Positions 23,444 through 36,757 of a DNA stretch of 38,056 bases are shown piece after piece. The stretch is from Phycisphaerae bacterium (GTDB lineage: Bacteria > Planctomycetota > Phycisphaerae > Phycisphaerales > SM1A02), in contig PBAY01000052.1 of the NCBI GenBank assembly GCA_002717655.1, forward strand, positions 1 to 38,056. The letters run 5' to 3'. Position 1 is the stretch's first letter; every line of letters starts with the position of its first letter. The notes under the pieces were generated by a model that ran no database searches, had not been told where the DNA came from, and saw nothing but the letters and a program-made list of their open reading frames with translations. The position numbers and the translations under genes were made by a program.

Positions 23444-25498
23444 TCAATCGAGCCAATCAGGCTCCATGAATACAAAAGTGGTTCGATAGCCACGGTGGAC
23501 AAAAGCCTTGACGACCGCAGGTTGGTCCTGTTCGATCTGGTCGATGGCAGCCTTGAAAGAAGCGGTGTCCGTCACCGGGAGGTCATTCAGAGAGACCAGG
23601 AGATCGCCACTGGCGAGTCCGGCAAGACTGGCCCATCCTCCATTTTCAACGGAAGTGACGATGACACCCTCGAGACCATGCTCCCATCGATTCTTGATTG
23701 AATCCATGTAGACCTGATCTCGTACACCGAACTCAAGCGACTCGCATTCGGCTTCATCAGCTTCGTTGGTCCCTGGCGGTGTTCCTTCAAGTGCAACAGG
23801 AAGGATGAGTTCTTCCTTGTTGCGGATGATGGTCAACTCGACCGGCTCTCCGACGGGCATGGCTTCAATACGTCGCGTGAGCCGTGAAGCATCCTGACTT
23901 CTTGAGGCTCTCAGTGATTTGCCATCTACCGCTGTGATGATGTCGCCGCGCTGAAGGCCGGCAGCCTGTGCTTCGGAATCAGGGTAGATGCGGGTAACGC
24001 GGAATCCCATGGTTTTGCCTAGCCCCAAGGATTCAGCGACAGGGCGGGTGAGTACCTGGGTTTCAATGCCGAGCCATGCTTTGGCGAGTTCCGACCCACC
24101 TCTTCGTGTCTGTCGCTCACCCGTGGTTTCCACGACGGTGAGCATTTCGGCTTCGCCACGTCGAAAGTTGACGAGACTCTTGGTTCCCGGCGTGATGGAC
24201 TTCATGAGCGATTCGAATTCAACGAGTTGCTGAATATCCTGGCCATCGACAGCAATGATCACATCGCCTCGTTGAAGGCTTGGTTGTGCCTTTTCGCCTG
24301 GTCTTCCAGGACGAACGCCGGTGATCATCACACCATTGGCATCTTGATATTTGCGAGCCAGCGCCATCTGAATCGTCACATCCTGGACGGTGATTCCCCA
24401 GGGGTCGATGACGGACTGTTCCCCCAGATACTGTTCCAGTGGTGCAGCAGTGAGCGTGGCGGTCATGGATTCACGATCACTTTTCCTGCCTGTTTCATCA
24501 GCGGTGGCATCGGGTACAAGTCTGGTCCAGGAAAGTGAGGCGGATGTGCCGGGTTTGATGTCCGCCATGCGTTTGAGCAAAGGTGGGATTTCTTCGAAGG
24601 TGGAGACGTGGATGGATTCGCCATCGACTTCGGTGAGGATGTCGCCTGCCTGAAGTCCAGCTTCATGGGCAGGTCCGCCTTCCACGACCCAGGTGATCAA
24701 GGCGCCTTGCTGATCATCCATCTTGTCCACAGGTTTGAAGGAAAGTCCGAACCAGCCACGACGGACTTCTCCATGTTCCAGTGCTTCACTGAGGACATCA
24801 GCTGCAATATTCGAAGGAATGGCGAAGCTCATGCCGCTGCCGCCACGGTCATTGATTCCAACGACCTGGCCTTCAAGATTCACGAGTGGGCCTCCGCTGT
24901 TGCCGCCGAGAATCAGTGCATCATGCTGAATCCAACGCGTGAAGATGCCGGTTCGTTGGCCGCCGCCAAGATCGGTCTCTTCCATTTCCGCACCAGTGAA
25001 GCTGGTGAATACACGGTGTGGATTCGCCACAATGCCACGGGTCATGGAGCTTGAAAGCGTCATGGGATTGCCCATCGCAAGAACATCGTCACCTACTTGA
25101 AGCGATTCAGAATCGCCCAGTCTGGCGAAAGGCAGCGCTGCTTCATCATCTCCTACCTGCAACTGCAGGACGGCCAGGTCCGTCAACGGGTCCAGCACGA
25201 GGGGCTCCGCCTGAAAGCTTCGACCGTCGGGAAGAGTGCAGGTGATTCTTGTTGTTTCACCAGCCACATGGAAATTGGTCAGCACATGTCCTTCGGGAGA
25301 CACGATCACGCCACTGCCTGCAGCAGGAAAGCGTCGCAGGCGGCCGTTCTGGTACTGGGTACCGACGACGGCGATATTGACCAATGCCGGGTAGACGGCT
25401 TCGCGAGCCGTATCGACTTCATTGCCCGCCTCAAGACCGGTCGTCGTCATCATCAGGACGAATGCGACGAGGCATGATTTGATCCAGATCGTGATCAT
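23444..25498 (-). CDS. HtrA/DegP-like serine protease with four PDZ domains
   Basis: A 684-residue exported protease with an N-terminal signal (MITIWIKSCLVAFVLMMTTTG). The catalytic triad is complete: His77 in VLTNFHVAG, Asp107 in DPLTDLAVL and Ser201 in GGNSGGPLVN. Four PDZ-like modules follow at about residues 245-350, 365-465, 478-575 and 590-684, recognisable from AGLQAGDILTEVDGES, PSLQRGDVIIAVDGQD, AGLQRGDIITAVDGKS and AGLASGDLLVSLNDLP. DegP-type enzymes usually have one or two PDZ domains, so four is unusual, although planctomycetes often carry extended forms. It probably degrades or refolds misfolded envelope proteins. GAGGAGAG precedes the ATG. The pseudoprotease and GNAT lie downstream on the same strand. 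Confidence 0.93.
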   Translation of the reverse strand: MITIWIKSCLVAFVLMMTTTGLEAGNEVDTAREAVYPALVNIAVVGTQYQNGRLRRFPAAGSGVIVSPEGHVLTNFHVAGETTRITCTLPDGRSFQAEPLVLDPLTDLAVLQLQVGDDEAALPFARLGDSESLQVGDDVLAMGNPMTLSSSMTRGIVANPHRVFTSFTGAEMEETDLGGGQRTGIFTRWIQHDALILGGNSGGPLVNLEGQVVGINDRGGSGMSFAIPSNIAADVLSEALEHGEVRRGWFGLSFKPVDKMDDQQGALITWVVEGGPAHEAGLQAGDILTEVDGESIHVSTFEEIPPLLKRMADIKPGTSASLSWTRLVPDATADETGRKSDRESMTATLTAAPLEQYLGEQSVIDPWGITVQDVTIQMALARKYQDANGVMITGVRPGRPGEKAQPSLQRGDVIIAVDGQDIQQLVEFESLMKSITPGTKSLVNFRRGEAEMLTVVETTGERQTRRGGSELAKAWLGIETQVLTRPVAESLGLGKTMGFRVTRIYPDSEAQAAGLQRGDIITAVDGKSLRASRSQDASRLTRRIEAMPVGEPVELTIIRNKEELILPVALEGTPPGTNEADEAECESLEFGVRDQVYMDSIKNRWEHGLEGVIVTSVENGGWASLAGLASGDLLVSLNDLPVTDTASFKAAIDQIEQDQPAVVKAFVHRGYRTTFVFMEPDWLD

Positions 25499-25784
25499 CA
25501 GGGTCTCTCCTCTCTGCCATTTCTACAGGCAGGTCGTCCAGCCTAACGACTCCTCAAGGAGGTGGAATCTTCCGGTTGAGAACCCCTTTTTTGGCCAATT
25601 GAGGAGGGGTCACTGCCGAAATACGCGATTTCCCGGATTTGCCTGTGAGACTCGAAGGCTCCATGCAGAGGACTGATAGGCAGGGAGCTTCTGGTGCGTA
25701 GGAAGCTCTTCCGATCTTCGGATCGGAGCAGGGTGATGGAGCCCGCGGCTGTCTGAATTGGAAACCCGTGCTGGAGACGAACAC
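25499..25784. promoter_or_regulatory. Divergent intergenic region between htrA and the Cys-module gene
   Basis: This 286-nt gap separates two divergent genes and must hold both promoters. No convincing -35/-10 pair is clear. It contains a runny C/T patch (AACCCCTTTTTTGGCC near 25580) and the cUUCGg hairpin listed separately. No convincing small gene is seen on either strand. Confidence 0.5.
25710..25727 (+). promoter_or_regulatory. cUUCGg tetraloop hairpin in the leader of the Cys-module gene
   Basis: TCCGATC-TTCG-GATCGGA is a perfect 7-bp stem closed by C-G over a TTCG loop, which in RNA is the exceptionally stable cUUCGg tetraloop. It lies 58 nt before the GTG start, so it may be in the mRNA leader, where it could protect the transcript or pause polymerase. 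There is no T-run, so termination is unlikely. Confidence 0.5.
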
Positions 25785-28571
25785 GTGAATATCAACCGAT
25801 CAACCTATAGCTCAATCAAATGGTCCATCATCAGTGTGGCCACCTTGTCTTTGAGTTCGATGGCCATGGCTGAACCGGAAGGTGCCTGTTGTCACGAATT
25901 TGGTGGCAATGGCATGATCTGCGAGCAGCTTACCGAGCATGTCTGCACCGACTATCAGGGTTACTGGTTTGGCGATGGTGTCAACTGCAACGATCCTCAG
26001 GTGGATTGCCACAATCCGCCTTTGACCGGTGCCTGCTGTTATGAAGATCCTCACCATGGTCTGGTCTGTGCTGAATTGATTCAGGAATTCTGCATCGATG
26101 CCAATGGATACTGGTATGGGCCAGGTGTCAGCTGCAGCGATGCCCAGGTTGAATGCAATCCCCTCAATGCTGAAGGCGCATGCTGCTACAAGGATGCAGA
26201 CAACAATCCTGTCTGTGATCAGTTGATCGAAGAACACTGCCTTGATGCGAATGGAGCCTGGTACGGGCCTGGTGTCGATTGCACTGATCCTCAGGTTGAC
26301 TGTGGCACTCCTTCCTATGAGACCGGTGCCTGCTGTTATGACGATGCCACCTTCGGGTTCATCTGCTGGGAACTCACTCAGGACAACTGTCAGAGCATGG
26401 GTGGATACTGGTACGGCCCCGGTGTTTCCTGCAACGAGCCGTTCGTTGAATGTGAACTTCCACCGAGTCCGGAAGGCGCCTGCTGCTATGAGGATCCTGA
26501 TCAGGGTGTCATCTGTGCCCAGTTGATCCAGGAGCACTGCCTTGATGTCAACGGTGTCTGGTATGGCATCGGAGTCGACTGCAACGATCCACAGGTCGAC
26601 TGTGGCGGTTCGAGCTCTGACAAAGGTGCCTGCTGCTACGCCGATGCCGATGGCACGCTCAACTGCATCGAGATCAATGTTGCCGACTGTGAGAATCTCA
26701 GTGGCACCTGGTACGGCGTCGCCGTGCTCTGCTCCGATCCCGTAGTCGAATGCGACAATTCATCCAACGAAATCGGTGCATGCTGCTACGAGGATGCGAC
26801 CCTTGGTTTCATCTGTGCCATGCTCACGAGTGATCAGTGCCTCAGCCTTCCTTCCGGCTACTGGTACGGTGCCGGTGTCGTCTGTGGTGATCCACAGGTT
26901 GAATGTGATCTTCCCGTCGGTGGCGACTGCATCATCGAGCCAGGAGCAAACTGTGCTGGACGTCCTGCATATCAGGATCCTGCTTTCTCACAGGTCTTCG
27001 GCAATGGTGAAGTAGCGATTCAGACAGCCTCGCCAAGCATCTTCGGTGGCTCCGTCGTCACGGTGTTCGATCTCTCAGGTGCCAATTCGGCTCCAGTCAA
27101 CAGCTGGTTTGCCTTGAACCGCTACAGCGACTCCGACTGGAATCAGAACACCCTTGGCAGCGTCTATGGTCTTGCAGTTGACGGCGAAGGCAACATCTTC
27201 GTGACCACAACTCGTTCATGGTTCAGCGACTATGTCGGCATTGGCGGATGGGGTGCCATCTACCGTCTGGATGCCATCACCGGTGATGTCACGATCTTCG
27301 CTGATCTTCCTAATCTCGGAACCGGCCTCGGCAGCATCACCTATGACTGCGATCACGATGTGTTCTTCGTCAGCAACATGGAAGACGGTTTGATCTATCG
27401 GCTTGATTCAAACGGCAACGTTCTTGACACCTTCGATCCAGCACTGCCCTGGACTGGTGCAGCAGGTCCTGTCGCGCTCGGCGATCGCCCATGGGCTGTC
27501 GAGGTTCATGCTGGACGTCTCTACTTCTCCATGTGGAATGAGCACTACAACAACGCAGTTCCGGGTGCGGCAAATGAGATCTGGTCCGTCCAGCTTGATG
27601 CTTCTGGCATGCCTGTTGGTCTGGAAACCCTTGAGGTTTCAATTCCTTCCTACTCCGCTTCTGTCGAGTGGAGTGCTCCGGTCGGTGACATCCGCTTCTC
27701 ACCACGTGGCACCATGCTGCTGGCTGAGCGTGGCATGATGAACTTCACTCAGCTTGGTGCACATCAGGCTCGGGTGCTGGAGTATGTCTGTGAGGCAGGC
27801 AGCTGGGTCGCCAGTGCAAGCACGTTCGAAATCGGAGAAATCGCTGGTTCCAACTCATCCGGTGGTGTTGATGCGGACATGACGCGTACCTGGGCTTCCG
27901 GTGATGCACTGCATGTCAATCATCCTGCACCGTATCAGAACATCTACGGATTCCAGGGTCTCCCTTCCACCGGTGGTGATGTCACCAACAGTCTTCTCAT
28001 CGACTATCAGGACAACATGATCGGTCAGGACAAGACCATGATCGGCGACCTTGTCGTGACTCATGCAGAGGCTGGCCCATGTCTCAACACCAACTTCTTC
28101 GATGTCAACTGCAAGTTCCATCATCACAATGGTGTGTATCACAAGGTTGAATTCGGTTTCTCAGCCATGGGTTCCGGAACGATCGCTGAAGTGCAGGTGT
28201 CGGGTCCTGGCGTGAACATCAATCCAAATCCAATCGTGGGTCCATTCCCCCCGTATCAAAGCTATCCAGTCGACGTCCGGATGTATGGTGCCACCGGTGG
28301 TCAGTCGATGTGCCTGACGCTTACGGCGATCTTCACCGACGGTTCGATCTGTGTCGGCGAGATCTGCTTCGAGGTTCCTGTCTGCTCCGAGCCCGGGCCT
28401 GGCGACACCAACTATGACTTCAAGGTTGATGTCACCGATCTGCTCTCCATCATCGAAGCATGGGGTAATCAGTGTGGCGAGGATGATGACTGCACGGCTG
28501 ATCAGGATGGCGACGACGTCATCGGCATCGGCGATCTCCTGATCGTTCTGGAGAACTGGACCTCCCGCTGA
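25785..28571 (+). CDS. Secreted protein with seven six-cysteine modules, beta-propeller and dockerin-like tail
   Basis: A 928-residue protein from the GTG at 25785 (GGAGA 8 nt upstream; an in-frame TTG at 25758 lacks an SD). A signal peptide ends near MAMAEPE. Residues ~33-374 are seven tandem ~49-residue modules, each opening GACC and following C-C-x(8-11)-C-x(6-7)-C-x(5)-G-x-W-[YF]-G-x(3)-C-x(6)-C. Next comes a ~300-residue propeller-like region (GLAVDGEGNIFVTTTRSW, FFVSNMEDGLIYRLDSNGN), then a beta-rich domain, and finally dockerin-like loops (YDFKVDVTDLLSIIEAWG, DVIGIGDLLIVLENW). It is probably an extracellular structural or adhesive protein stabilised by disulfides. A perfect terminator follows. 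No function is known. Confidence 0.85.
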   Translation: MNINRSTYSSIKWSIISVATLSLSSMAMAEPEGACCHEFGGNGMICEQLTEHVCTDYQGYWFGDGVNCNDPQVDCHNPPLTGACCYEDPHHGLVCAELIQEFCIDANGYWYGPGVSCSDAQVECNPLNAEGACCYKDADNNPVCDQLIEEHCLDANGAWYGPGVDCTDPQVDCGTPSYETGACCYDDATFGFICWELTQDNCQSMGGYWYGPGVSCNEPFVECELPPSPEGACCYEDPDQGVICAQLIQEHCLDVNGVWYGIGVDCNDPQVDCGGSSSDKGACCYADADGTLNCIEINVADCENLSGTWYGVAVLCSDPVVECDNSSNEIGACCYEDATLGFICAMLTSDQCLSLPSGYWYGAGVVCGDPQVECDLPVGGDCIIEPGANCAGRPAYQDPAFSQVFGNGEVAIQTASPSIFGGSVVTVFDLSGANSAPVNSWFALNRYSDSDWNQNTLGSVYGLAVDGEGNIFVTTTRSWFSDYVGIGGWGAIYRLDAITGDVTIFADLPNLGTGLGSITYDCDHDVFFVSNMEDGLIYRLDSNGNVLDTFDPALPWTGAAGPVALGDRPWAVEVHAGRLYFSMWNEHYNNAVPGAANEIWSVQLDASGMPVGLETLEVSIPSYSASVEWSAPVGDIRFSPRGTMLLAERGMMNFTQLGAHQARVLEYVCEAGSWVASASTFEIGEIAGSNSSGGVDADMTRTWASGDALHVNHPAPYQNIYGFQGLPSTGGDVTNSLLIDYQDNMIGQDKTMIGDLVVTHAEAGPCLNTNFFDVNCKFHHHNGVYHKVEFGFSAMGSGTIAEVQVSGPGVNINPNPIVGPFPPYQSYPVDVRMYGATGGQSMCLTLTAIFTDGSICVGEICFEVPVCSEPGPGDTNYDFKVDVTDLLSIIEAWGNQCGEDDDCTADQDGDDVIGIGDLLIVLENWTSR
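25881..26906 (+). repeat. Seven tandem ~147-bp repeats encoding six-cysteine GACC modules
   Basis: Seven in-frame copies, each starting at a GGTGCCTGYTGY-type codon string and ending in VxC (mostly QV[DE]C). The best conserved are copies 2, 3 and 5 (ELIQEFCIDANG, QLIEEHCLDANG, QLIQEHCLDVNG). Copies 4, 6 and 7 differ more, so the array is old rather than freshly expanded. Each copy has six cysteines, compatible with three disulfides. Confidence 0.9.
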
Positions 28572-28640: not shown

Positions 28641-29081
28641 TCATGACGAGCGGGTGATGTTCCAATTGTGCTGCATGGAGTGCCGCAGAACCAGTCTTCC
28701 TTCAAGCAGTTCTCGATCGAAGTTGATGAAGCCATTGACCAGATAGATCTCGGCGGGGCTGCAGTTCCACAGCAGGTCGACCTCCCGGTCCTGTTTGACA
28801 TGGTCGCGAGTGATGATGATGCCGACCAGGCCATTGTCCGCTGTTCCACACCAAACATCCACTTCATCGCCATCTCCACCGAGGGTCTCCGGGAGATGTC
28901 CGTAGTCAATCGGATAGATGATCGAGGGATGATCAGGGTGTGCTGATCCGCTAGGTCGATCGATCACGACGCCTCGTTGCTTGAGCAGTGATTCCCAGTG
29001 GTCCCACGCGAACGCCGTGAGGCCATCATCGACACGGTCGGGAATGGGGGGGAGTTGATGCCAGGTGAGTTTGTCGGTCAT
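28641..29081 (-). CDS. Small inorganic pyrophosphatase-like protein
   Basis: A 146-residue protein resembling short bacterial members of the soluble inorganic pyrophosphatase family. Visible family segments are VVIDRPSGSAHPDHPSIIYP, IDYGHLPETLGGDGDEVDVW (the metal-binding DGDxVDV signature near residue 70) and VKQDREVDLLWNCSPAE. Family I enzymes split pyrophosphate to phosphate with Mg. Compared with E. coli PPase it is shorter, and not all catalytic Lys/Arg positions can be matched, so it may act on another substrate. An inverted repeat, CACGGT-GTT-ACCGTG, lies 8 nt upstream of the start. No SD is evident. Confidence 0.78.
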   Translation of the reverse strand: MTDKLTWHQLPPIPDRVDDGLTAFAWDHWESLLKQRGVVIDRPSGSAHPDHPSIIYPIDYGHLPETLGGDGDEVDVWCGTADNGLVGIIITRDHVKQDREVDLLWNCSPAEIYLVNGFINFDRELLEGRLVLRHSMQHNWNITRSS

Positions 29082-31834: not shown

Positions 31835-32000
31835 GCTCAACGCTCCATGAGGGGGCAGGTCGTTCGATGGCCCGAGTATAGGCTTGAGCGAGGGGGTTGC
31901 GGGTGTGAACTTCGGGATCTCGTTCAAGCTTCAGGAGAGGCATGGGAGGCCTCACGTATAGTGTGACTGCCCTGCGAAGGGCTCTTGAGAAGGAGAGATC

Positions 32001-32897
32001 ATGGAACTGCGATTGGCTGCCCACAATTGGATGAGGCCCGAGCCTCTGGAAGTCACCCTGGAGCGACTTGCCCGTTATGGCTATGAGGGCATCGAGATCA
32101 TGGGTGAGCCGGACAAGTATGAGCCCAAGGAAACCCGCCGGCTTCTGGAGAAGCATGGTGTTCGTTGCTGGGGGGCGGTCTCGATCATGCTTCAGTGCCG
32201 TGATCTGATCCATGCTGATCATTACCTTCGTCTGGGATCCATCGAGTATCTCAAGGACTGCATCACGATGGTCCATGAACTCGGCGGCGAAGTCATGTGT
32301 ATTGTTCCCAGCGAAGTCGGCAAGATCACGCCAATGGCGGATCCTGAAACGGAATGGGGCTGGGCGGTCGAGAGTCTCAAGCAGGTGGCGGATCATGCAC
32401 GAAAACAGAACGTGCGCATCGCCCTCGAGCCTTTGAACCGATTTGAAACGAATTTTCTCAATCGGCATGATCAGGCGCTGTGTCTGGCAGATGCGGTCGG
32501 TGAGGATGTCGGCGTATGTCTTGATGCATTCCACATCAACATCGAAGAGGCGGATCCCTATGAAGCCATTCGCGCCGTGGGCAGTCGACTGACTGACTTC
32601 CATATCGCCGACACCAATCGACGGGCCCCGGGTGAAGGAGCCTGGGATTGGAAGAAGCTTCTGAAGACTCTTGATGAGATCAACTACACGGGTTGCCTCA
32701 CGACTGAATTCGTGAATCCCTCCGATCGATCGCCACTTGGTGGTGATCGTCGTGATGCAGGAACCGAGGGTTCGGCGGAAGAACTCAAGTTCATACGTGA
32801 TCACGGGAGTGATCTGCAGGACAACGAAACCTACAGCGCCTCATTCGAGCAGACCGCTGAATATCTCAAGTCCTGCATGCCACAGGCGGCTTCATGA
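32001..32897 (+). CDS. Sugar-phosphate isomerase/epimerase-like TIM-barrel protein
   Basis: A 298-residue protein of the AP-endonuclease-2/xylose-isomerase-like barrel family. Metal and catalytic segments are visible: RIALEPLNRFETNFL (Glu), VCLDAFHINIEE (Asp, His), LTDFHIADTNRRAPGEGAWDW (His, Asp) and CLTTEFVNPSDR (Glu). These fit a divalent-metal-dependent epimerase or isomerase of a keto-sugar, such as tagatose/psicose 3-epimerase or IolO-type keto-gluconate epimerase. AAGGAGAG precedes the ATG, and a TATAGT at 31957-31962 could be a -10 box but lacks a clear -35. It is the first gene of a four-gene operon and overlaps the next by ATGA. Confidence 0.88.
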   Translation: MELRLAAHNWMRPEPLEVTLERLARYGYEGIEIMGEPDKYEPKETRRLLEKHGVRCWGAVSIMLQCRDLIHADHYLRLGSIEYLKDCITMVHELGGEVMCIVPSEVGKITPMADPETEWGWAVESLKQVADHARKQNVRIALEPLNRFETNFLNRHDQALCLADAVGEDVGVCLDAFHINIEEADPYEAIRAVGSRLTDFHIADTNRRAPGEGAWDWKKLLKTLDEINYTGCLTTEFVNPSDRSPLGGDRRDAGTEGSAEELKFIRDHGSDLQDNETYSASFEQTAEYLKSCMPQAAS

Positions 32898-34177
32898 CCC
32901 GCCGACGTCCGGTGGTGCTGTGCCTCGGGACTCTGGATACCAAGGGGCCGGAAACCCGCTTCATCGCGGAATCGGTTCGTGCACAGGGTTGTGACACGCT
33001 GGTTCTTGATTGCGGAATTCTGGGTGAACCCCAGGACATCGTTGCAGACATCACTCGTGAAGAAGCCGCCAGGGCAGCTGGTACAACGATCGAAGCCCTG
33101 CGTCAGGCGGGATCACGTGGCGTGGCGATCGACGAGATGATCAAGGGCGTCAAGGCGCTTGGTGAACAGTTGCATCAACAAGGCCGCATCGACGGCGTCG
33201 TAGCGCTGGGCGGCGCCGAGGGATCAGTGCTGGCTGCTGCAACGATGACATCTCTTCCCGTGGGCCTGCCAAAGCTCCTTGTCTCGCCCATTGCTTCGGG
33301 GCGAAGAAACTTCGGGCCTTTCGTAGGAACCCGCGATGTGACGGTGATGCACTCGGTCGTTGACATTCTCGGGCTCAATTCCATTGCAATGGAAGTCTAT
33401 GAGAATGCGGCATCGGCCATTGCTGGAATGGCCAGTGCGCATTTCAGGCGCCAATCACAATCAGAAAAGGTGTCCACCAGACTTCAGGTAGCCGCGACCA
33501 TGCTTGGCAACACGACGAAACCTCTGATGTGGATCCGTCAGCAGATGGCAGCGGATCATGAAGAGCTTGTCATCTTCCATGCCAACGGAGTCGGCGGAGC
33601 GGCCATGGAGGAATCTCTGGATTCAGGCCGGTTTCAGGGAGTCATTGACTACACCTTGAGTGAACTTGCAGGTGAGGTGGCAGGCGGATTCCATGTCTGT
33701 GATTCGTGTGAACGTCTGTCAGCTGCCTCCCGTCTTGGTCTACCGCAGGTCGTTGTCCCCGGTTGCGTGGATTTCTCGGTTCATGGCGCTCCTGAGGAAG
33801 TGCCCGAGTCCATACGTGAACGACCCAGTTACTACCACAATCCTGAATTCACACTTGTGCGACTCACGACAGAGGAGCAGTGTGAGGTAGGACGTCGAAT
33901 CGTGAGTCGTCTCAATGCCTCGACCGGGGAGGTCATCGTGGTCCTTCCGCTGCAGGGACTTTCGGTTTCAGACCGTCGTGGTGGAGTGTTCGAGGCCCCT
34001 GAGATCAGCCTTCAGTTCCAAAGGATTCTGCATGAGGGACTTCGCGAGGGCATTGAAATCCGTGAAGTCGATGCACATATCAATGATCAGGCCTGTGCCG
34101 AAGCAGTTCTGTCAGCATGGCAAAGCCTGGCTTCGGGACGTAAGGTGGGGCGATCCCATGTGGAAGGAGAAGCGTGA
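32894..34177 (+). CDS. Tm-1-like / UPF0261 family ATP-binding protein
   Basis: A 427-residue protein of the UPF0261 (Tm-1-like) family. Typical segments are VVLCLGTLDTKGPETRF at the start, DGVVALGGAEGSVLAAATM near residue 100, a nucleotide-loop-like SPIASGRRNFGPFVGTRDVT (135-155), VIFHANGVGGAAMEES and QVVVPGCVDFSVHG. Plant Tm-1 binds ATP and blocks tobamovirus replication; bacterial members have no established reaction. It is coupled to the upstream epimerase by 4 nt and overlaps the creatininase gene, so it probably takes part in the same metabolic route, perhaps as an ATP-dependent or hydrolytic step. That role is inference. Confidence 0.88.
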   Translation: MTRRRPVVLCLGTLDTKGPETRFIAESVRAQGCDTLVLDCGILGEPQDIVADITREEAARAAGTTIEALRQAGSRGVAIDEMIKGVKALGEQLHQQGRIDGVVALGGAEGSVLAAATMTSLPVGLPKLLVSPIASGRRNFGPFVGTRDVTVMHSVVDILGLNSIAMEVYENAASAIAGMASAHFRRQSQSEKVSTRLQVAATMLGNTTKPLMWIRQQMAADHEELVIFHANGVGGAAMEESLDSGRFQGVIDYTLSELAGEVAGGFHVCDSCERLSAASRLGLPQVVVPGCVDFSVHGAPEEVPESIRERPSYYHNPEFTLVRLTTEEQCEVGRRIVSRLNASTGEVIVVLPLQGLSVSDRRGGVFEAPEISLQFQRILHEGLREGIEIREVDAHINDQACAEAVLSAWQSLASGRKVGRSHVEGEA

Positions 34178-35190
34178 TGAGTCGCAAGGACACGGTTCGA
34201 ACACTCGGCAATCAAGGTGGAAACGGCGATCCCAACGGGATGGCCAGCATGACCAGAGATCAGCTTCCCGGCGAAGCCATCTTCCAGGACGAGGCTCATG
34301 CGCCTCGTCGTGACACGCTCGATCTTGATTTCCCTTCATTCTGCATGGGTGATCTGACGTGTGTCGATGTCGCCGAGTATCTCAAGCACTCCGATACGAT
34401 TCTGATTCCCAAGGCCAGCCTGGAACAGCATGGGCCTCATCTTCCGTTGTACTGCGACACCATTACATCGTTGGAAGTCGCCAGTCGAGCAGGTGAGCAG
34501 GCAGGCATCATGTACACGCCACCATTGTGGTTGGGCTATTCGCCACAACACATGAGAGAGCCTGGCAAGGGAACGGGGACCGTCACCCTTCGTGTCGAGA
34601 CCTATCTGAATCTACTTTACGACATTGGTCGCAGTCTGGTGCATCACGGCTTCAACCGTCTGATCTTCGTCAATGGTCATGGGTCCAATGTCAAGGTCGT
34701 TGATCCGGTATTGAGGAAGCTGCGTAATGAGACAGGCGCACTGGTCGCCTATTACAAGCCGTATGCAGAGCGCTACATTGGAATGCTGCAGGATATTCTC
34801 GAAGGACCGGTGGAGGAGACCCCTGGATGGCATGCCGGTGAACTGGAAACCAGTCAATGCCTGTGTCATGACCCTTCGATTGTCCGGATGGATCGTGCAG
34901 AGGTTTCCCGGGCACATGCGCCGAAGTGGCTTGGTGAAGCATGGGCCAAGAAGGATGGCATGCCTGATGCCGAATTCCAGGGTTATCAGTATTTCAACTT
35001 CCCCTTCGAGCATGCCGAGTTCACCGAATCAGGCGTGATGGGGAACCCGGAACGGGGTACGGCAGGCAAGGGTGAAGTGGCCTTCCGTCGATTCAGTAAT
35101 CATCTCATTGACGCCGTTCATGAACTTGAGAAAGTTGATGTGAACGTGCATGACCGTGATTGGACCAAGGGCAAGACCATGTCCGCTTGA
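34177..35190 (+). CDS. Creatininase-family metal amidohydrolase
   Basis: A 337-residue protein starting at the ATG at 34177, sharing one base with the upstream stop (TGATG); AAGGAG is 7 nt before it, and a GTG at 34174 is the alternative. The metal ligands of the family are present: Glu83, His85 and Asp94 in SLEQHGPHLPLYCDT, His in FVNGHGSNV, and Glu in HAGELETS. Family members open cyclic amides or cleave C-N bonds, and IolN-type members cleave 3-dehydro-scyllo-inosose. About 49 extra residues precede the fold compared with creatininase numbering (Glu34). Context with an epimerase and an FAD oxidase points to carbohydrate rather than creatinine metabolism. Confidence 0.9.
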   Translation: MSRKDTVRTLGNQGGNGDPNGMASMTRDQLPGEAIFQDEAHAPRRDTLDLDFPSFCMGDLTCVDVAEYLKHSDTILIPKASLEQHGPHLPLYCDTITSLEVASRAGEQAGIMYTPPLWLGYSPQHMREPGKGTGTVTLRVETYLNLLYDIGRSLVHHGFNRLIFVNGHGSNVKVVDPVLRKLRNETGALVAYYKPYAERYIGMLQDILEGPVEETPGWHAGELETSQCLCHDPSIVRMDRAEVSRAHAPKWLGEAWAKKDGMPDAEFQGYQYFNFPFEHAEFTESGVMGNPERGTAGKGEVAFRRFSNHLIDAVHELEKVDVNVHDRDWTKGKTMSA

Positions 35191-35211
35191 TGACAGAAGG
35201 CGAGTTGCGAG

Positions 35212-36681
35212 ATGGATACATCAGCTATTGATCCGGGCGCCACTGCATCGCTGCCAAGCATGCTTGCTGCCATCGTGGGCGATGATCATGTGTTGGATCA
35301 GGAAGCTGCCGCCAAGGTCCATACCGGCGACATGAGTTGGTTGACGATCTCGGCAGCAGCGAGTGGTAAACCATTGAGTCGGCCGGATGCGATCGTCTTT
35401 CCAAGGACGGCTGAAGAAGTATCCGACATCCTCATTCTGGCGAATCGTCTGGGTATTCCGGTGACTCCATTCGGAGGAGGCTCGGGTGTTCAGGGCGCTG
35501 GCAACGCCGATCGAGGTGGCATCATCCTTTCGCTCAAGCGAATGAATGCGATCCGCAGTGTTGATCGCGAGTCCATGACGGCTGTGGTTGAAGCGGGACA
35601 TGTCATTCGTGAGCTGGAAGCAGGATTCAATGCCGATGGGTTGTCCTTTACGCACTACCCTGCGTCCGCTGAATGGGCCACGCTCGGTGGTTGCATCGCA
35701 GCTCGTGGCAGTGGTGTGCTGTCCACGAAGTATGGAAAGATCGAAGAGCATGTTCTCAGCCTGGAGTTGGTTCTTCCAACGGGTGAAATCGTCCACACTC
35801 CAGCGGTGCCAAGGCATGCGGCAGGTCCGGAATTGACGCAGCTGTTCGTCGGGGCAGAAGGAGTGCTCGGTGTAGTCACGGCTGCAACCATTGCGTTGCG
35901 GCAGGTTCCGTGTACTCGCATCTTCCGATGTCTGCTCTTTGATGATCTTGATGCAGGCATCGCCGCAGGTCGTGACATCATGGTCGATGGACTGCGTCCA
36001 CCAGTCATGCGTCTGTATGACAAGGCGGCGGCCACCGGTTCACTGGAACGTGCCGTCGACTGTGGTATTGACCGTGCCGCGATGGTTCTGATGTTCGACG
36101 GTGATGTTGAATCAGTTGTTGAGGCCGAAGCTCAGGCAGGTATTGAACGATGCCTGCGTCATGGAGGCATCGACCATGGATCCGAGCCCGGCGAAATCTG
36201 GTGGAAACGTCGTTATGACTTCTATTACCCACCGCATGCTCCGGAACTGCCTCAGATCTGGGCGACCATGGATGTCGTGGCTGACTTTGCACATATTCGC
36301 GGCGTCTATGACGCGGTCACGGAAGCCATGATGGGCGCCATTGATCCCAAGTGGAACATGACGCTCAAGACGCATTTCTCCCATTGGTATCCCTGGGGCT
36401 CCATGATCTATCCAAGATTTGGTGTGCCCAAAGGTCCTGATGATCGAGAGGAGGCATTGGCGCTTCATGACGCCATCGTGAAAGCCGCGACTGAAGCAGC
36501 ACTCGAGTCGGGTGCCGTGATCAACGATCACCATGGTGTGGGGATGCGGTTGAACGACTATCTCGGAGATCAGCTTGGCGAAGGAGGCATGGCCATGCTG
36601 CAGGGAATCAAGTCCGGATTGGATCCCAACAACGTTCTATGCCCCGGGAAGATGGGGCTGAAGGTCTCTTCGACTGACTGA
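35212..36681 (+). CDS. FAD-linked oxidase (GlcD/alkylglycerone-phosphate-synthase-like)
   Basis: A 489-residue flavoprotein. The FAD-binding loop is VTPFGGGSGVQGAGNADRGG (residues ~83-102), followed by ASAEWATLGGCIAARGSGVL and FVGAEGVLGVVT of the PCMH fold. The C-terminal cap has MTLKTHFSHWYPWGSMIYP and the INDHHGVG motif, recalling the His motif of alkyl-DHAP synthase and D-2-hydroxyacid dehydrogenases; the end PNNVLCPGKMGL is typical. It probably oxidises a 2-hydroxyacid or a hydroxy group of a polyol, passing electrons to a carrier. GGCGAG is a modest SD. It starts 21 nt after the creatininase gene as the last operon gene and is followed by a strong terminator. Confidence 0.9.
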   Translation: MDTSAIDPGATASLPSMLAAIVGDDHVLDQEAAAKVHTGDMSWLTISAAASGKPLSRPDAIVFPRTAEEVSDILILANRLGIPVTPFGGGSGVQGAGNADRGGIILSLKRMNAIRSVDRESMTAVVEAGHVIRELEAGFNADGLSFTHYPASAEWATLGGCIAARGSGVLSTKYGKIEEHVLSLELVLPTGEIVHTPAVPRHAAGPELTQLFVGAEGVLGVVTAATIALRQVPCTRIFRCLLFDDLDAGIAAGRDIMVDGLRPPVMRLYDKAAATGSLERAVDCGIDRAAMVLMFDGDVESVVEAEAQAGIERCLRHGGIDHGSEPGEIWWKRRYDFYYPPHAPELPQIWATMDVVADFAHIRGVYDAVTEAMMGAIDPKWNMTLKTHFSHWYPWGSMIYPRFGVPKGPDDREEALALHDAIVKAATEAALESGAVINDHHGVGMRLNDYLGDQLGEGGMAMLQGIKSGLDPNNVLCPGKMGLKVSSTD

Positions 36682-36706
36682 TTCGTATTCATGATTCATC
36701 AAATTA

Positions 36707-36736
36707 GAACCCCGGTCTCCTGAGAGACCGGGGTTC
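36707..36736. terminator. Bidirectional terminator closing the four-gene operon
   Basis: GAACCCCGGTCTC and GAGACCGGGGTTC form a perfect 13-bp stem with a 4-nt CTGA loop. It is followed by TGTTGTTGTT on the plus strand and TAATTTGATG on the minus strand. It lies between the oxidase stop and the convergent VWA gene's stop and can serve both. Confidence 0.9.
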
Positions 36737-36757
36737 TGTTGTTGTTGGCGCATCTGG

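Follow-up and report, generated by a model that had tools for sequence, protein, structure and literature searches.

A conserved four-gene unit of Planctomycetota and Chloroflexota containing a UPF0261 protein, and its possible role in keto-sugar breakdown

What does a bacterial operon do that joins a protein of the UPF0261 (Tm-1-like) family to three enzymes? The question is raised by a 38,056-nucleotide stretch of DNA from a Phycisphaerae bacterium (assembly GCA_002717655.1, contig PBAY01000052.1), called here the window. It is contig C52 of a 3.07 Mb genome, 91.5% complete, and carries four consecutive genes for a TIM-barrel sugar epimerase or isomerase (TIM), a UPF0261 protein (UPF), a creatininase-family hydrolase (CRE) and a flavin adenine dinucleotide (FAD)-linked oxidase or dehydrogenase. 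An earlier note on this DNA had proposed an undescribed route for cyclic polyols or lactones, analogous to the inositol pathway of Thermotoga. We find that the four genes form one real and specific unit. Tentatively, and with a little short of even confidence, we read it as a conserved operon of Planctomycetota and Chloroflexota for the breakdown of a keto-sugar or keto-sugar acid, in which UPF0261 is the predicted kinase.

The genes are as tightly packed as that note had read them, and all four open reading frames lie where it had placed them (Table 1). The TIM/UPF0261 and UPF0261/hydrolase junctions are 4-nt overlaps (ATGA at 32894, GTGA at 34174), and 21 nt separate the hydrolase gene from the FAD gene. 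The four family assignments also stand, each above its Pfam cut-off: AP_endonuc_2 for the epimerase (152.5 bits, cut-off 31.1); PF06792 (185.5, cut-off 27) and PF23189 UPF0261_C (206, cut-off 27) for the UPF0261 protein, which also passes NF002674 (416.7, cut-off 335); Creatininase for the hydrolase (194.6, cut-off 31.3); FAD_binding_4 (133.1, cut-off 26.4) and FAD-oxidase_C (83.6, cut-off 21.2) for the last protein. The genome contains exactly one UPF0261_C match, one creatininase-family match and one homologue of the FAD protein at E<=1e-10, all of them in the operon.

The unit recurs in other genomes. A genome collection described as comprising 84,980 species, when scanned with the hydrolase, gave 11 loci, two in Phycisphaerales (89-91% identity) and nine in Chloroflexota (78-83%); the Phycisphaerales bins are the closest named carriers. 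Further genome-search hits bring the total to 37 loci of other genomes, and all four genes are present at 32 of them, in Planctomycetota and Chloroflexota, which puts their co-location beyond chance and bears out the co-occurrence on which the earlier proposal depended. The order TIM-UPF-CRE-FAD is kept in 28 of the 32 complete loci. A gene for a CCG iron-sulfur protein (FeS) joins the row at four loci, which are ordered UPF-CRE-FAD-FeS-TIM in L035 and L036 (Planctomycetota) and FAD-FeS-TIM-UPF-CRE in L095 and L114 (Chloroflexota). The five incomplete loci are cut by contig ends (L054, L060, L096) or lie on short contigs (L104 and L113, of 5,958 and 11,509 bases). Dropped before counting were L115 (same genome as L062; also L093) and further copies of counted genomes or of the window (L063, L066-L070, L072, L078, L080, L092). 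Short loci (L003-L007, L064, L065, L071, L073-L077, L079, L081-L091, L094) gave way to longer stretches that cover them (L032-L036, L095-L114, L116). The open-access literature, to which the search was confined, yielded no description of the unit.

Within the sequences compared, two of the proteins form clades that are specific to the unit. For UPF0261, all 35 operon members group together with support 100/99 in a tree of 75 rows, whose paralogues are a part of the UPF0261 found (those of L019-L031 and L037-L051, plus second copies in operon loci). The 38 operon hydrolases likewise form one clade (support 99/100, 67 rows, with L126 and L129-L140 omitted as further copies), in a tree whose outside branches are very long, whose backbone is unresolved and whose bootstrap is unsettled, and which we use only for the unity of this clade. 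UPF0261 itself is widespread, being found in 92 of 392 sampled Planctomycetota genomes. As a control we took 29 Planctomycetota UPF0261 loci of other genomes, with ~1.5 kb on either side as far as the contig extends. The hydrolase gene adjoins UPF0261 in 5/5 loci of the operon clade (>=49% identity to the window) and, among the matches listed, in 0/24 loci outside it, these 24 being the ones returned from the 92 UPF0261-bearing genomes. L024 among them shows a TIM match next to UPF0261, though a weak one (68 bits). Around other UPF0261 genes, 15 larger regions held no TIM, CRE or FAD homologue.

The unit is patchily distributed. It occurs in 3 of 201 sampled genomes of the window's order (its own genome included), in 3 of 301 sampled Chloroflexota (the centre, G394, included) and in 27 of 154 of the order of G394. 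Planctomycetota and Chloroflexota sequences are interleaved in both the UPF0261 and the hydrolase trees. Interleaving and patchiness together would suit horizontal transfer, and the four-gene unit is probably mobile. As a separate observation, the UPF0261 proteins of the window and of L052/L062 are 65-69% identical and the neighbouring genes 86-93%; UPF0261 is also the least conserved gene in 4/5 other pairs, less strongly.

What, then, could the UPF0261 protein contribute? The family reaches from bacteria and archaea to fungi and plants, and its domain was called uncharacterized in 2016, according to the consulted portion of PMC5028733. The earlier note treated it as having no known reaction, a statement overtaken by structure 9MPY (Saro_1862 of Novosphingobium aromaticivorans), a UPF0261 relative solved with bound acetovanillone. 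In this bacterium acetovanillone catabolism begins with a single-component kinase, MarK, as given in the excerpted text of PMC13101465, and Saro_1862 is probably MarK. Given the bound ligand and the kinase that initiates its degradation, the UPF0261 step is most likely a phosphorylation. The operon protein shares 134 of 398 residues (34%) with 9MPY, including 29 of the 36 family-invariant ones. We found no bacterial reaction for UPF0261 in the titles and abstract openings of the open literature, nor a role in the parts of PMC11837543, PMC13406360 and PMC12632266 consulted. HpeHI/AcvAB, weighed as a two-component model, did not hold up, since by the available part of PMC12167813 it is a rifampin-phosphotransferase-like dikinase. 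DUF1537 is not among the matches listed by Foldseek or VIA-align for the UPF0261 protein, a listing that does not exclude it.

UPF0261 might not be a kinase at all but a lyase, a mutase or a structural partner, in a role otherwise taken together with a PEP_hydrolase protein. The two families pair and co-evolve elsewhere (PMC5028733, same portion, where the partner is PEP_hydrolase/TBST), and our loci agree with that pairing: PEP_hydrolase (PF09370) lies within 300 bp of UPF0261 in 11 of 15 non-operon loci. We nevertheless think this unlikely, if worth keeping in mind. At none of the 34 operon loci with an operon-clade UPF0261 is PEP_hydrolase within 300 bp of that gene (the nearest is at 893 bp), and although 13 of the 17 carrier genomes searched do have PF09370, four do not: the window's, two Phycisphaerales bins and Chloroflexi CFX4, these bins being incomplete. 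The role of the family becomes testable in a clade that keeps company with three enzymes whose chemistry can be predicted and that, in four of the 17 genomes, does without PEP_hydrolase. Within the neighbourhood of the unit (up to ~8.5 kb around it; query proteins were drawn from the counted loci, so each family counts its own source), PF09370 occurs at 14 of 37 loci, all in Chloroflexota and usually with a second UPF0261. Where both modules co-occur they may serve one pathway. The second UPF0261 and PEP_hydrolase stand just upstream of the unit in L108-L112, L058, L059, L098, L101, L106 and L107 (Chloroflexota), and several of the two-module Chloroflexota loci also have ABC (ATP-binding cassette) transporter and Gfo/Idh genes.

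The nature of the substrate is suggested by the first enzyme. Residues E143, D175, H201 and E236, which we take to be metal ligands, and E149, H178 and R207, presumably sugar contacts, are kept in >=97% of 34 operon TIM proteins. All seven align with those of IolO (TM0416), which places the protein in the D-tagatose 3-epimerase / IolO superfamily. Among five structures compared, its active-site residues are closest to IolO, in keeping with the analogy of the earlier note: HIADTNRRAPG in the window corresponds to HVADSNRWAPG. By curated standards it is neither IolO (NF041099, 140.9 bits) nor D-psicose 3-epimerase (125.2 bits), since both scores are below the cut-off of 300. In known relatives, such residues hold a CH2OH-CO-CHOH end. 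From the kept metal and sugar-contact residues we infer that the substrate is a ketose or a keto-acid.

The hydrolase is less easily placed. Its putative metal ligands E84, H86, D95, E223 and E225 are invariant in 27 rows (alignment A2), and H169 is kept in 25 of the 27. It scores 106.2 bits against creatininase (TIGR04448, cut-off 235), 96.1 against MftE (TIGR03964, cut-off 172) and 75.9 against IolN, the 3-dehydro-scyllo-inosose hydrolase (NF041098, cut-off 245). The position of creatininase Glu122, presumably an active-site residue and the one changed in E122Q entries, is Ser171 here, invariant in the same rows. The firm clustering with creatinine or formamide hydrolases that would have undone the earlier proposal is not seen, in a tree that holds no known creatininase or formamide hydrolase. 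Nor can the enzyme be called IolN: by its score it is not, and an authentic IolN (L117, 527 bits) falls outside the operon clade, on a very long branch of the same unresolved backbone. In passing, three authentic IolN proteins (431-527 bits) were met in one Planctomycetota genome, G197 (L117 and two more places), the sole genome above the cut-off among 199 searched.

These results bear on a variant of the Thermotoga inositol route, in which the hydrolase, acting like IolN, would open an inosose or other cyclic ketone, and the TIM barrel, acting like IolO, would epimerise the product. The epimerase active site fits, being of complete IolO type. So does the alignment of the hydrolase with IolN, which keeps the ligand positions E, H, D, H and E (in IolN: E, H, D, NGH and H..E), so that a loss of the metal site does not speak against the likeness. 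Levoglucosan/inositol-dehydrogenase-like Gfo/Idh proteins near the unit, at 9 of 37 loci, point the same way. The score and the placement of IolN do not, and inositol 2-dehydrogenase exceeds its cut-off in none of the nine operon-carrying Planctomycetota genomes (the window's included), where all nine have weaker relatives. We hold an inositol route to be quite unlikely; of the analogy drawn earlier, the epimerase half survives and the hydrolase half gives way.

For the FAD-linked protein, the best matches in the PDB are alkyl-dihydroxyacetone phosphate (alkyl-DHAP) synthases, at 152 (2UUU) and 144 bits, ahead of D-lactate dehydrogenase (140) and glycolate oxidase (139). The highest curated model, GlcD (TIGR00387), reaches 183.7 bits for a cut-off of 567.9. 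The protein has the HHGVG motif of alkyl-DHAP synthases, its DHHGVG aligning with GEHGIG of 8JDB, and lacks the EHGIG of the GEHGIG-type motif of D-lactate and D-2-hydroxyacid dehydrogenases. Residues H388, S390, H391, Y400, R402, H440 and H441 are kept in >=97% of 35 rows. The tyrosine, the HHG and an H-x-S-H as in 2UUU, which we take to be active-site residues in the synthases, are present as a motif, from which no activity follows. At 4 of 37 loci a CCG iron-sulfur protein is encoded between the FAD gene and the TIM gene, which suggests that electrons are passed on rather than to oxygen.

The unit could instead serve the breakdown of a phenolic or aromatic compound: UPF0261 would phosphorylate a phenol as MarK reportedly does, and the FAD enzyme, of the vanillyl-alcohol oxidase (VAO) superfamily, would oxidise a side chain. 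Such a route agrees with the acetovanillone bound in 9MPY, with a lower-scoring resemblance of the FAD domain to oxidases of vanillyl alcohol and eugenol and with a small glyoxalase/dioxygenase-superfamily protein that follows the unit in 6 loci. It is very unlikely all the same: the epimerase retains ketose-specific residues, and the annotated neighbours (a part of all) are mostly sugar-type, with no ring-cleavage enzyme or carboxylase recognised among them.

Keto-sugar breakdown is the direction in which those neighbours point. A sugar-type ABC transporter is represented by its solute-binding protein and both permeases at 5 of 37 loci and by a MalK-type ATPase at 11. Further TIM barrels are IolE-like (8/37) or psicose-epimerase-like (10/37), and regulators are of the GntR (8/37) and ROK (6/37) families, with DeoR in three Planctomycetota. 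At one locus of the 37 a Dak1 gene (dihydroxyacetone-kinase domain; L113:3394-4419) follows those for UPF0261 and the hydrolase, which hints at a short ketose as substrate. The polyol or keto-sugar direction of the earlier note is reasonable, and is favoured by the transporters and dehydrogenase-like neighbours of part of the Chloroflexota loci.

Should the unit degrade a keto-sugar or keto-sugar acid, the TIM-barrel enzyme would begin by epimerising or isomerising a substrate ending in CH2OH-CO-CHOH. UPF0261 would phosphorylate a hydroxyl (or enol) of it using ATP; the FAD protein would oxidise the product and pass the electrons on, in some genomes via the adjacent iron-sulfur protein; and the creatininase-type enzyme, with a binuclear metal site, would hydrolyse what has been oxidised, either opening a ring or cleaving a C-C bond, in place of an aldolase. 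The order of the second to fourth steps is a guess. That the whole amounts to an undescribed, phosphorylating and aldolase-free route for keto-sugar acids, with epimerase, UPF0261 sugar (or enol) kinase, an alkyl-DHAP-synthase-like flavoenzyme oxidising a phosphorylated ketose, hydrolytic C-C cleavage by the creatininase-type enzyme and a four-gene cassette mobile between phyla, is in our view doubtful as a complete package.

Several points weigh against keto-sugar breakdown by a UPF0261 kinase. Every reaction is a prediction, C-C cleavage by the hydrolase included. 9MPY differs at 7 of the 36 family-invariant residues, its identity with MarK is our own deduction, and MarK acts on phenolic compounds, not on sugars. 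The structure model of the hydrolase is weak (mean predicted local distance difference test score, pLDDT, 69). Each of the 11 named carriers is a metagenome bin, and many other carriers lie on short contigs. The sugar-type neighbours were found in Chloroflexota loci only, and none of the neighbour families occurs elsewhere in the window or in the stretches of its two closest relatives (L052, L062). This last absence, together with the patchy distribution, would also suit a unit that repairs or removes a damaged metabolite instead of feeding growth, an improbable role for genes that in many other genomes stand near transporters and GntR, DeoR or ROK-type regulators, like inducible catabolic loci.

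In the window the unit ends with the hairpin GAACCCCGGTCTC-CTGA-GAGACCGGGGTTC, which is GC-rich and, by direct reading, of 13 pairs as in the earlier note. A terminator scan agrees and widens it to 36705-36738, with 15 pairs including G-T; the scan gives 7 terminator-like sites against 3.1 (sd 1.8) in shuffles, the remaining six having 5 to 7 pairs. Both flanking genes run opposite to the operon: the upstream one encodes a 672-residue protein that matches nothing in Pfam or NCBIfam at E<=0.001, the downstream one a protein with a VWA match slightly below the cut-off. Further upstream are an HtrA-like protease (23444-25498) that matches the PDZ domain as many as four times, where one or two are usual; a 937-residue open reading frame with a GACCYED-like cysteine motif repeated ~7 times in its N-terminal part (25758-28571); and one of 146 residues (28641-29081), perhaps a divergent or reduced inorganic pyrophosphatase, which it matches over residues 51-88 only.

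Table 1 The four-gene unit in the window and its flanking signals.
Feature	Position	Strand	Basis
Ribosome-binding-site-like AAGGAGAGA	31990..31998	+	Direct reading; 2 nt ahead of first start codon
TIM-barrel sugar epimerase/isomerase (D-tagatose 3-epimerase / IolO superfamily), 298 aa	32001..32897	+	Pfam, IolO model, conserved residues
UPF0261 (Tm-1-like) protein, 427 aa; predicted small-molecule kinase	32894..34177	+	
Creatininase-family metal-dependent hydrolase, 338 aa, GTG start	34174..35190	+	Pfam, putative metal ligands, own clade
FAD-linked oxidase/dehydrogenase, VAO family, alkyl-DHAP-synthase-like site, 489 aa	35212..36681	+	Pfam, PDB match, residues
Terminator-like hairpin closing the operon, 13-bp perfect core, CTGA loop	36705..36738	+	Terminator scan and direct reading

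If the kinase reading is true, UPF0261 would gain a second kind of substrate, and a catabolic cassette would be defined in two environmental phyla. How does the unit compare with systems already known? The inositol pathway of Thermotoga maritima likewise has a creatininase-family hydrolase (IolN) and a TIM barrel of the D-tagatose-3-epimerase family (IolO), with the same epimerase catalytic residues. The operon hydrolase, in contrast, lies far under the IolN cut-off, in a clade without IolN, and an FAD enzyme and UPF0261 replace the nicotinamide adenine dinucleotide (NAD) dehydrogenases and sugar kinase of the Thermotoga gene set. Compared with 9MPY, whose ligand is aromatic, the UPF0261 protein is longer by two residues after ASG and reads FHANGVGG in place of FHSSGAGG. 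The FAD protein has Y400 and HHGVG in common with the alkyl-DHAP synthases 2UUU and 4BBY, and H-x-S-H with 2UUU, whereas 4BBY has other residues at both histidines; it differs from the two in its conserved R402 (Ile or Tyr there) and from alkyl-DHAP synthase in its gene company. Four-carbon acid-sugar operons combine a DUF1537 kinase with the TIM-barrel isomerase OtnI: there too a two-domain protein of ~420 residues adjoins a TIM-barrel isomerase, but the four-gene unit has no aldolase or NAD dehydrogenase. Finally, the operon protein belongs to the same UPF0261 family as plant Tm-1 and the proteins paired with PEP_hydrolase (TBST), from which it is set apart by its separate clade and by having an epimerase, a creatininase-type hydrolase and an FAD enzyme as partners instead.

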